From contig JANXAC010000006.1 of NCBI GenBank assembly GCA_025061835.1, positions 1-33,180 of the forward strand: a stretch of 33,180 bases of DNA, in the 5' to 3' direction. Below are positions 28,245 to 31,182 of this stretch, piece after piece. Origin of the DNA: Spirochaetota bacterium (GTDB lineage Bacteria > Spirochaetota > Brevinematia > DTOW01). How positions within the stretch are numbered: the stretch's first letter is position 1; each line of letters opens with the position of its first letter. A program made the translations under genes and the position numbers. Under the pieces are notes generated by a model. The model saw only the letters and a list, made by a program, of their open reading frames with translations. It made no database searches and had not been told where the DNA came from.

Positions 28245-29087
28245 CTAGACTAATAGTCTCAATATTGATTGAGGTCTTAGGTTTGCTTGAGCAATCATTG
28301 AGATGGACGCTTGAGCAAGTATCTGATTCTTAACGAAATCACTCATCTCATAAGCCATGTCTGTATCTCTAATCCTTGACTCTGCTGCTTGTAAGTTCTC
28401 ATATCCTATAAGCAAGGTTCTAGCAATCTTGTCAAGCCTATTCTGATAAGCGCCTAGATCTGCTCTCTGCTTGTTTAATGTCCTCAAAGCTGTATCTATG
28501 ACACCTATCGCTTGATTCGCCCCTTCTTGTGTAGTGAGATTGATCTTATTCGTTCCATCTTCTTGTATCAAGCCTAAACCTTTGGCTGTCATATCACCAA
28601 CATTTATCAGTATTCTCTGATCCATATTAGCGCCTATATGGAATGAAATGTTTGATACATTTGGAGCAAATCTACCTGTTAGCATATTCAATCCGTTAAA
28701 CTGCGCATGTGATGCGATTCTATTGACCTCGGCTACAAGTTGTGATACTTCAACTTGCATATATGTTCTATCCTCATCCGAGTATATACCATTTCCTGCC
28801 TGTATTGAGAGTTCCCTTAGTCTTTGTAAAACTTCTGTTGTCTGGTTTAAGTACCCTTCAGTAGTTTGAATGAAGGATATAGCATCCTCAGCGTTCATCT
28901 CAGCACGCCTAAGTCCTCTTATCTGGGCTCGCATTTTCTCTGATACTGCTAACCCTGACGCGTCATCACCTGCTTTGTTGATTTTAGTTCCAGATGATAG
29001 TTTTTCAAGGTTAGCGTCAAGAGCCCAGTTGTTTACCTTGAACTGCCTGTTGGCAAAGATTGAAGAGATATTGTGATTGATGATCAT
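28245..29087 (-). CDS. flaB: Flagellin, FlaB-type core filament protein (downstream copy)
   Basis: This 280-residue flagellin forms the core of the periplasmic flagellar filament of spirochaetes. The conserved N-terminal coiled coil covers residues about 1-140: [60 protein letters not shown]. The C-terminal coiled coil covers about 195-280: [34 protein letters not shown], ending [18 protein letters not shown]. Almost no variable middle domain exists, as usual for FlaB. A paralogue lies immediately upstream (29294-30154). It is about six residues longer and very similar. The leader of about 70 nt carries a hairpin with CAAGGA in its loop, an AGGAGG ribosome site and one half of a 13-nt inverted repeat. 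Export is through the flagellar type III system, so no signal peptide is expected. Confidence 0.95.
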
Positions 29088-29097
29088 AGGTATCGCA

Positions 29098-29134
29098 CCT
29101 CCTACTTTTTTAGGGATACTTCCTTGATATCCCT
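29098..29134 (-). promoter_or_regulatory. Flagellin leader hairpin with CAAGGA loop and ribosome site (CsrA-like)
   Basis: In the mRNA AGGGATA pairs perfectly with TATCCCT (29134-29112), leaving the nine-base loop TCAAGGAAG. The ribosome site AGGAGG (29103-29098) follows about ten bases later. A GGA in a hairpin loop plus a second GGA in the ribosome site is the layout of CsrA-repressed flagellin leaders such as B. subtilis hag. The RNA structure is read from sequence. CsrA binding is inference. Confidence 0.55.
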
Positions 29135-29214: not shown

Positions 29215-29246
29215 GCAAAAACCGAAAGGGAGGGCAACCCCTCCCT
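29215..29246 (-). terminator. Intrinsic terminator of the upstream flagellin gene
   Basis: On the minus strand GGGAGGG pairs with CCCTCCC (29245-29239 and 29234-29228) around a four-base loop, followed by TTTCGGTTTTTGC. It is a strong GC stem with a T-rich tail 48 nt after the stop codon, so the first flagellin is probably transcribed alone. Confidence 0.85.
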
Positions 29247-29293: not shown

Positions 29294-30154
29294 CTATCTT
29301 AAAAGCGTTAGTATTGCCTGTGGTCTAAGGTTTGCCTGGGATATCATAGATATTGAAGATTGAGCAAGTATCTGGTTCTTCACGAAGTCACTTATCTCAT
29401 AAGCCATATCCGTATCTCTAATTCTTGACTCTGCTGCCTGTAGGTTCTCGTATCCAATTAACAGTGCCTTTGCAGTATACATAAACCTGTTCTGGTAAGC
29501 ACCTAGGTCTGCTCTCTGCTTATTGACTTTCTGTAGTGCCTGGTCAAGAACTCCGATAGCCCTATTAGCCTTTTCTGGTGAAGACAAGCTTAGTATCTCA
29601 CCGGTAGCACCATCCTTTATTCCAAGAGCAACCGCAGTCATAGCCTCAATATTTATGTTAAGCCTTTGATCCATGTTAGCACCAACATGTATCCACATAC
29701 TAGCAGTTGGAGTAACAGTTTCAGTCCTTTTAGCAAACCTACCTGTTAGCATCGTAAGTCCATTGAACTGTGCATGCGAAGCAATCCTATCAACCTCAGC
29801 AACTAACTGAGATACTTCAACTTGAATGTAGAGTCTATCCTCATCAGTGTAGATACCGTTTGAGGCTTGTACTGCTAGCTCTCTAAGTCTCTGTAGAACT
29901 TGAGTCGTCTGTTCCAGATATCCTTCAGTAGTTTGGATGAAGGATATACCATCCTCAACATTCTTCTCAGCTCTCCACAAGCCTCTTATCTGAGCTCGCA
30001 TCTTCTCAGAAACAGCCAAACCTGAAGCATCGTCACCAGCCTTGTTAATCTTGAGACCTGATGACAACTTTTCAAGGTTTGCGTCCATGTTCCAGTTGTT
30101 GATCTTATACTGCCTGTTGGCAAAAATTGAAGATATATTGTGATTGATTATCAT
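29294..30154 (-). CDS. flaB: Flagellin, FlaB-type core filament protein (upstream copy)
   Basis: This second 286-residue FlaB-type flagellin has the same N-terminus ([20 protein letters not shown]) and the same C-terminal coiled coil ([20 protein letters not shown], then [18 protein letters not shown]). It differs from the downstream copy mainly by a short insertion around residues 144-152 ([10 protein letters not shown]) and a changed stretch near 185-195. Such pairs usually mix in one filament and tune its stiffness. Translation control looks unusual. The ribosome site AAGGAGG is the loop of an 8-bp hairpin whose 3' arm contains the ATG. A second hairpin precedes it. A strong terminator follows, so it is monocistronic. 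The promoter was not firmly identified. A CCGATAT with poorly spaced TAAA lies about 140 bp upstream on the minus strand. Confidence 0.95.
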
Positions 30155-30174
30155 AAACCCCTCCTTGGTTTATA
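30152..30174 (-). promoter_or_regulatory. Hairpin displaying the ribosome site in its loop, start codon in its stem
   Basis: In the mRNA TATAAACC (30174-30167) pairs with GGTTTATG (30159-30152). This is seven Watson-Crick pairs plus one U-G. The loop is AAGGAGG. The ATG at 30154-30152 is part of the stem. The loop is both the ribosome site and a CAAGGA motif (with the closing C), fitting a CsrA-type repressor site or a self-contained translation switch. Confidence 0.6.
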
Positions 30175-30179
30175 GTTTT

Positions 30180-30196
30180 CCTCCCCTCATGGGAGG
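30180..30196 (-). promoter_or_regulatory. Second leader hairpin of the upstream flagellin
   Basis: In the mRNA CCTCCC (30196-30191) pairs with GGGAGG (30185-30180) around ATGAG. No T-tract follows, so it is not a terminator. Its CCTCC arm could instead pair with the GGAGG of the ribosome site downstream, offering an alternative fold. Confidence 0.5.
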
Positions 30197-30210
30197 ATTA
30201 TTTCATAACC

Positions 30211-30237
30211 TAAACCTCAGAGGGAGATAGCCGATAC
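30211..30237 (+). promoter_or_regulatory. Sigma-28 (FliA)-like promoter pointing right
   Basis: TAAA (30211-30214), exactly 15 bases, then GCCGATAC (30230-30237). This matches the enterobacterial flagellar consensus TAAA-N15-GCCGATAA at all but the last base. It points away from the flagellins toward the hairpin at 30262-30309 and the HEAT gene. Use in vivo is inference. Confidence 0.5.
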
Positions 30238-30244
30238 TTCTCTT

Positions 30245-30320
30245 GAAACCCTTTAAATCCGCACCAGCTATCCACCTCTGGCTTCAGGATTAATATCGGA
30301 TAGCTGGTGTCCTTTACTTT
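30245..30320 (+). ncRNA. Candidate sigma-28-driven small RNA with terminator-like 3' end
   Basis: If the sigma-28-like promoter is used, transcription starts near 30245. The RNA would end after the perfect 12-bp inverted repeat CACCAGCTATCC/GGATAGCTGGTG (30262-30273 and 30298-30309), whose 24-base loop can itself fold. The repeat is followed by TCCTTTACTTT, a moderate U-rich tail. Length would be about 75 nt. The hairpin could instead belong to the flagellin leader on the other strand or be a protein-binding palindrome, so confidence is low. Confidence 0.3.
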
Positions 30321-30409
30321 AGTCTAGATCTGTGTTATTTGGACCAATACACTACTCATCATATATCAAGACCTCCATAAAATTTTCACTAAACTCTAGG
30401 TAAAGATTC

Positions 30410-30438
30410 TTGACATTAAAGATCCAGTTATAAATAAT
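30410..30438 (+). promoter_or_regulatory. Sigma-70-type promoter of the HEAT-protein gene
   Basis: A perfect TTGACA (30410-30415), a 17-nt spacer and AATAAT (30433-30438). The predicted start near 30445 leaves a short leader with GAGAGGATAG before ATG 30460. Confidence 0.6.
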
Positions 30439-30459: not shown

Positions 30460-31182
30460 ATGAAACAGATTGCTGGTTTAGTTATCAGATACTTTGTATT
30501 AGTCGGATTAGCTTTCTATTCAGACTACGCATATTCAGTTCATAATTACCCAGAAAAGAAGGATTTAGAAAAATATTTTAATAGCCTACCAATTAACGAA
30601 AGTTCAGTTGATGAACTATGTAATGCTGCTATGAACAGTGATGATGAGACTGTAAAGATTCTAGCAATAAGAAGACTAGGTGATATGTTTGAGAAAGGTG
30701 CAAAAAACTCGTTGTCTGAAAAAACTTATAAAAAGGCTGTTAATACACTAATAGCCGGTCTTGAGGAAGGAAACGACAGAATAGTTAGGATAGGAGGTAG
30801 GCAAGTTAATCCATTCTGGGAGGTTAGATCTGCCTCTGCTGATGCTATCGCTAAACTCAAAGACCCTTCAACAATTCCCAATATGATAAAAGCGCTGAGA
30901 TACGACACAGATCCTGTAGTCAGAAGAAGTGTTGCACTAGGGCTTGGAAAGATGAAGGCTAAGGAAGCAGTCCCGGCATTAATAGACGTATTGGAAACAA
31001 CTCCAGATCAGGGTTTGGCAGGTGATATAGTTAAGGCATTAGGAGAAATAGGCGATAGAAAAGCATTCGGAGCACTCATAAAGGTCATTCGTGGAAACTT
31101 TATGCCAAAGGTTAAAGAGATGGCCCAAGAGTCTCTAGAAAAGATCCAATGGGCTGAAGAACCTGAAGAAATCATAAGATAA
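30460..31182 (+). CDS. Exported HEAT-repeat protein
   Basis: The 240-residue protein starts with a probable signal peptide (about residues 1-26, hydrophobic IAGLVIRYFVLVGLAFY ending near YAYS). The rest is alpha-helical with HEAT repeats, clearest at about 120-230. Examples are VRSASADAIAKLKDPSTIPN, VRRSVALGLGKMKAKEAVPA and LAGDIVKALGEIGDRKAFGA. These are of the PBS-lyase/HEAT type that forms a protein-binding solenoid. No catalytic residues are recognised, so it is likely a periplasmic scaffold or binding protein. Its position next to flagellin genes and downstream of a sigma-28-like site raises the possibility of a motility role, but it also has its own sigma-70-type promoter. Function is not known. 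Confidence 0.8.
   Translation: MKQIAGLVIRYFVLVGLAFYSDYAYSVHNYPEKKDLEKYFNSLPINESSVDELCNAAMNSDDETVKILAIRRLGDMFEKGAKNSLSEKTYKKAVNTLIAGLEEGNDRIVRIGGRQVNPFWEVRSASADAIAKLKDPSTIPNMIKALRYDTDPVVRRSVALGLGKMKAKEAVPALIDVLETTPDQGLAGDIVKALGEIGDRKAFGALIKVIRGNFMPKVKEMAQESLEKIQWAEEPEEIIR

Follow-up and report, generated by a model that had tools for sequence, protein, structure and literature searches.

A candidate antisense sigma-28-type promoter converging on the flaB promoter inside a spirochaete flagellin leader

Introduction

Small RNAs that depend on the flagellar sigma factor sigma-28 have been described in E. coli (UhpU, MotR, FliX and FlgO; PMC10578931), where they are derived from UTRs, and in Campylobacter (CjNC1/CjNC4 and CJnc170/FlmR; PMC4626219, PMC11187230), and in both organisms they act in trans. 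The element described here is like them in that a noncoding RNA made under the flagellar sigma factor is proposed to tune flagellar output, but differs in that its promoter lies antisense inside a flagellin leader and converges on the flagellin promoter, with no conserved trans seed. Among spirochaetes, the accessible part of a report on Leptospira interrogans describes cis-antisense RNAs opposite 5'UTRs in general (PMC5243855), as in the arrangement proposed here, but that part describes no flagellin case and no conserved convergent sigma-28 pair. The flaB2 gene of Treponema denticola is likewise driven by a sigma-28 promoter and has a long leader of 124 nt, for which CsrA sites near the Shine-Dalgarno sequence have been proposed; the available portion of that report mentions no antisense promoter (PMC9481697). 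Control of flagellin by CsrA and FliW is established for B. subtilis hag and Campylobacter flaA (PMC6529632, PMC4894983). The present genome resembles these systems, with adjacent fliW and csrA, GGA-loop hairpins in related leaders and a GGA-bearing Shine-Dalgarno hairpin, but CsrA-FliW control acts on the sense leader and is thus a layer beside the antisense element rather than identical with it. In a literature search that reached few subscription papers, no flagellin leader was described as containing an antisense sigma-28 promoter.

Results

A sigma-28-type motif lies antisense within the flaB leader

The window, i.e., the whole 33,180-nucleotide stretch of DNA that was analyzed, comes from a 1.8-Mb genome in 55 contigs (G000), which was compared with three relatives of the same genus (G001-G003) and one of the same family (G004). 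The genome encodes FliA (G000:C2:132435-133124, above the TIGR02479 cut-off). The features of the locus are as follows.

29294-30154, minus strand: flaB flagellin gene (flaB1 type)
30155-30286, minus strand: flaB 5' leader, about 131 nt, strongly folded (z about -4.5)
30293-30321, minus strand: flaB's own sigma-28-type promoter (TAAA 30321-30318, N17, TCCGATAT 30300-30293; predicted start about 30286)
30211-30237, plus strand: antisense sigma-28-type promoter (TAAA 30211-30214, N15, GCCGATAC 30230-30237)
30410-30438, plus strand: SigA-type promoter of the HEAT gene, 11 of 12 positions, independent of the element
30460-31182, plus strand: HEAT gene, downstream of the element

A sequence-only reading of this DNA had drawn attention to a near-perfect TAAA-N15 sigma-28-type motif on the plus strand, and this proved sound: the site matches 11 of the 12 consensus positions (TAAA and GCCGATAA, about 15 nt apart), and the N15 spacing recurs in 13/13 leaders of four families. 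Its predicted start is about 30244 on the plus strand. The same reading placed the site beside the flagellin genes and pointing away from them; the nearness and the direction are right, but the site in fact lies within the flaB 5' leader and points at flaB's own sigma-28-type promoter, so that the two promoters converge, with 55 bp between their –10 boxes as measured at the sequence level.

The motif is not rare. Three sites with at most two mismatches occur in the window against 2.67 expected, and a genome-wide search for the bare motif showed no enrichment, with one match against one in the reversed control. With no excess in either, the motif alone proves nothing, and it stands above chance because it is conserved. 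Within the window's flaB leader, the score of the antisense site was reached by 0 of 1000 shuffles.

The possibility that the element is the promoter of the HEAT gene was rejected, since that gene has its own SigA-type promoter, with similar sequence ahead of the gene in related genomes, and is not adjacent to flaB there. The proposed RNA of about 75 nt is supported in so far as it need not extend into the HEAT gene, which has this promoter of its own. On the other side of flaB, an intrinsic-terminator-like hairpin (29224-29246, minus strand) separates the two tandem flagellin genes. The second (28245-29087) is therefore probably transcribed from a separate promoter, although a search for a strong sigma-28-like site there found none.

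The antisense element is conserved with flaB1 across families of one class

The region upstream of orthologous flagellin genes aligns as a conserved block with sharp edges, bounded by TTAAAGT on one side and the start codon of flaB on the other. At its upstream end, the TAAAGT and CTATCCGAT of the flaB promoter are invariant in all five members of the window's family (f1), and families f2-f4 carry versions of this promoter with N16 spacing. In this class, the flaB1 genes' own promoters have spacings of 16-17; a spacing of 15 is seen in the antisense element and in most promoters of the flaB3 type.

An antisense match with exactly N15 is found at the same place in all 13 orthologous flaB1 leaders of families f1-f4, at 9-11 of the 12 positions and with boxes conserved as T[AC]AA / CGA[AT]A. 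In all 13 it is the best antisense match (tied with others in G015) and lies 55-62 nt before the ATG. Conservation is concentrated in the boxes, with a mean information of 1.60 bits in the motif box columns against 0.67 in the spacer and 0.85 and 0.62 in the flanks, and in G002 the sequence at the site is altered (CTCGATAA) while the N15 spacing is kept. Shuffling gave P <=0.017 for 12 of the 13 scores, which, because the sequences are related, are not 13 independent observations. In a fifth family (f5), two of four genomes carry the element (G010 and G016) and the other two lack it; individually, the scores of G015 and G016 are not significant.

Among the 15 genomes of the class that carry the element, the upstream neighbours of flaB are unrelated and are codirectional with it in seven. 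The element thus travels with flaB and is not the promoter of a neighbouring gene. When the block that contains the antisense boxes was folded as sense-strand RNA, no structure was shared across families (alifold 0.0), so that folding of the leader does not explain the boxes. Taken together, these comparisons speak for an antisense promoter that is functional.

Facing promoters recur at similar spacing in other spirochaete flagellin leaders

Convergent pairs were scored as the sum of sense and antisense matches, with at least 19 of 24 positions required. Such a pair is present in families f1-f4, in two f5 genomes (G010 and G016), and in family f13, which belongs to a different class and has a longer flaB leader; the score was reached by at most 1 of 300 shuffles for each leader. 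None of the flaB2 and flaB3 leaders tested carries the pair. The two –10 boxes usually lie some 60 bp apart, and mostly 46-68 bp in the relatives (46-65 bp in f1-f4, 38 and 68 in the two f5 genomes, 60-61 in two f13 genomes). The module holds this distance of some 60 bp from the sense –10 box despite varying leader length, at -60 to -140 from the ATG.

Outside the class, 116 distinct spirochaete flagellin leaders were collected, of which 47 have a sense promoter matching at least 10 of 12 positions. An antisense N15 site at a gap of 55-70 was found in six of these 47 (families f13, f32, f41 twice, f47 and f51), compared to 0.18 on average and never more than 2 in 200 shuffle trials, where the gap range had been picked after the class and f13 had been seen and its upper edge after the output of the outside-class scan. 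Without f13 there are five positives, and four, at gaps 61-65, remain if the single case at gap 70 is also dropped. Most other spirochaete flagellin leaders carry no convergent pair. We also observed that a sense flaB –35 box of TCAA often goes with TCAA in the antisense –35 box (L031-L033, L128, L214; family f2, G037, G188), and that the flaB3 promoter of f2 retains TAAA despite the TCAA in the flaB –35 box.

A covarying inverted repeat follows the antisense promoter in the window's family

Downstream of the antisense start, the following features were annotated.

30262-30273, plus strand: left arm of an inverted repeat, CACCAGCTATCC; also arm 2 of flaB leader hairpin I on the minus strand
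30298-30309, plus strand: right arm of the inverted repeat, GGATAGCTGGTG; overlaps the flaB promoter spacer and –10 box
30310-30322, plus strand: T-rich tail, TCCTTTACTTTAG; reverse complement of the flaB –35 region
30244-30320, plus strand: candidate antisense RNA, about 65-77 nt

The repeat is a perfect 12 bp, as had been claimed, and has a 24-nt loop; it begins about 18 nt past the expected start, not about 25 nt, and the tail is only moderately T-rich. A standard terminator scan limited to loops of <=8 misses the repeat, and a scan with loops up to 30 reports it. All four species of this genus have a terminator-like tail (5 T in 8), with 0/60 shuffles as good, and their arms are identical except for one outer pair. 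The 77-nt predicted RNA folds at -24.9 kcal/mol (z = -4.3).

Across f1, the plus-strand hairpin keeps 58 of 60 pair cells, which was matched by 4 of 500 column shuffles. Three of its 12 pairs are changed on both sides and one goes from G-C to G-U, a pair that is standard only on the plus strand; the covariation leans mainly on one divergent sequence, that of G004, in which two outer pairs are broken. G004 has a strong terminator further downstream instead. In families f2-f4, a scan of 140 nt showed no terminator-like site, and the hairpin with its terminator is confined to f1. Given this distribution, it is only for the genus that an RNA of short and defined length is well supported. Beyond the hairpin arms, the body of the RNA varies even between members of the genus; the segments proposed as trans seeds, CACCTCTGG and AAACCCTTTAAATCC, vary there and lose their standing as such. 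A search of Rfam returned no matching family. The hairpin region partly doubles as flaB promoter and sense leader.

The sense leader carries its own conserved structure

Two further elements of the flaB leader are located nearer the gene.

30179-30197, minus strand: sense leader hairpin II, three pairs with compensatory changes
30152-30174, minus strand: Shine-Dalgarno hairpin TATAAACC-AAGGAGG-GGTTTATG, GGA in the loop

Folding of the sense leader is strong in five species (z about -4 to -4.6). The Shine-Dalgarno hairpin is intact or partly so in four of the five family members and reduced in G004. In families f2-f4, the position homologous to hairpin II is occupied by a CsrA-type hairpin with GGA in the loop, which is present in all eight of their flaB1 leaders; its f1 homologue has no GGA, and the only GGA of the window's flaB is in the Shine-Dalgarno hairpin. 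Of 21 genomes, all have csrA and 20 have fliW, and the two genes are adjacent in this genome (G000:C10:40222-40766). The conserved sense-leader hairpins are probably part of CsrA-FliW control, with the CsrA sites putative.

The TAAACC used in the Shine-Dalgarno hairpin could also pair with a GGTTTA further upstream in the flaB leader (about 30211-30216), a possible alternative fold controlling flaB translation. The leader of the second flagellin gene contains a hairpin of its own (29112-29134, minus strand; AGGGATA-TCAAGGAAG-TATCCCT) with AAGGA in the loop, and in relatives its stems have changed and still pair, e.g., GGGGCGTA-AAGGAC-TACGTCCC in L029; it is a likely CsrA site. A hairpin of the form stem-AAGGAU-stem, close to the CsrA consensus, lies about 20-30 nt upstream of the Shine-Dalgarno sequence in many spirochaete flagellin leaders (L031-L040, L047-L054).

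Discussion

The analysis establishes the sequence, its conservation, the spacing and the hairpin covariation; promoter activity, the RNA, its termination and its effect are inferred. The reading we favour, and hold to be somewhat more probable than not, is that a sigma-28-driven antisense RNA and/or interference between face-to-face promoters brakes flaB in cis. Several observations count against it: the bare motif shows no genome-wide enrichment, flaB1's own promoters in the class are spaced at 16-17 and not 15, the hairpin and terminator are restricted to f1, two f5 genomes are without the element, and the pair is missing from most other spirochaete flagellin leaders. Active FliA would drive transcription of flaB from about 30286 on the minus strand together with an antisense transcript from about 30244 on the plus strand. 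Since the promoters face each other closely, with predicted starts about 32-51 bp apart, the antisense polymerase would need to travel only about 45-75 nt to pass the start and promoter of flaB. In this genus it would likely stop at the inverted repeat that lies on the flaB promoter. The position of the site inside the leader, converging on the flaB promoter, means that any product would be cis-antisense to the first ~45 nt of flaB mRNA, and the brake might thus be exerted by promoter interference and/or by a short antisense RNA pairing with the mRNA 5' end. FliA would then activate and limit flaB at once, as a self-limiting incoherent feed-forward loop in cis. The sequence-only observation thus holds, and its interpretation is supported in part and relocated: the site is most likely an antisense sigma-28 promoter, conserved and directed at flaB, which in the window's genus would yield a short antisense RNA.

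The same promoter, covarying hairpin and T-rich tail would also serve a discrete sigma-28-dependent small RNA of ~75 nt acting in trans on other flagellar mRNAs, the proposal of the sequence-only reading, for which E. coli (PMC10578931) and Campylobacter (PMC4626219, PMC11187230) offer precedents. We regard such an RNA as unlikely: outside the hairpin arms its body is unconserved even within the genus, other families have unrelated RNA sequence at this place and share no common terminator, and the obvious target is the complement of the RNA, i.e., flaB's own 5' end. It is also conceivable, with quite a low probability, that the plus-strand boxes are a by-product of a sense flaB leader conserved for folding or translational control. 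The block does sit in the strongly folded leader, the antisense –10 box shares sequence with arm 3 of leader hairpin I, and the compensatory changes of hairpin II are on the sense side. However, the block has no shared sense structure across families, its spacer is unconserved yet exactly 15 nt long, even in G002 where the sequence is altered, and the module stays some 60 bp from the sense –10 box while leader length varies. For the class-wide exact N15, the unconserved spacers and the lack of a shared sense structure, the view that the motif is the mere reverse complement of a structured leader was dropped as the main explanation.

The inverted repeat and paired boxes might instead be DNA sites for a regulator of flaB, as an operator dyad or a roadblock of stalled sigma-28 polymerase, with no meaningful antisense RNA. 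The overlap of the repeat with the flaB –10 box and the near identity of its arms in the four species of the genus would suit such sites, but no repeat of this kind extends beyond the genus except in the altered form of G004, whose pairing survives with a G-U, and the boxes fit sigma-28 and not another known site; we consider this highly improbable. The cis brake on flaB, from an antisense promoter facing its own, is the reading that we retain. Its extension to a phylum-wide and previously undescribed module, in which sense and antisense sigma-28 promoters about 60 bp apart face each other at one type of flaB and form an incoherent feed-forward brake, is put forward tentatively, at a little short of even chances.

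In this locus, a motif that is weak at a single site was made convincing by the conservation of its spacing across species. Spirochaete filaments contain several flagellins in set proportions. If real, a conserved antisense sigma-28 promoter that only one type of flagellin gene carries would offer a simple means, acting in cis, of holding down that one subunit.
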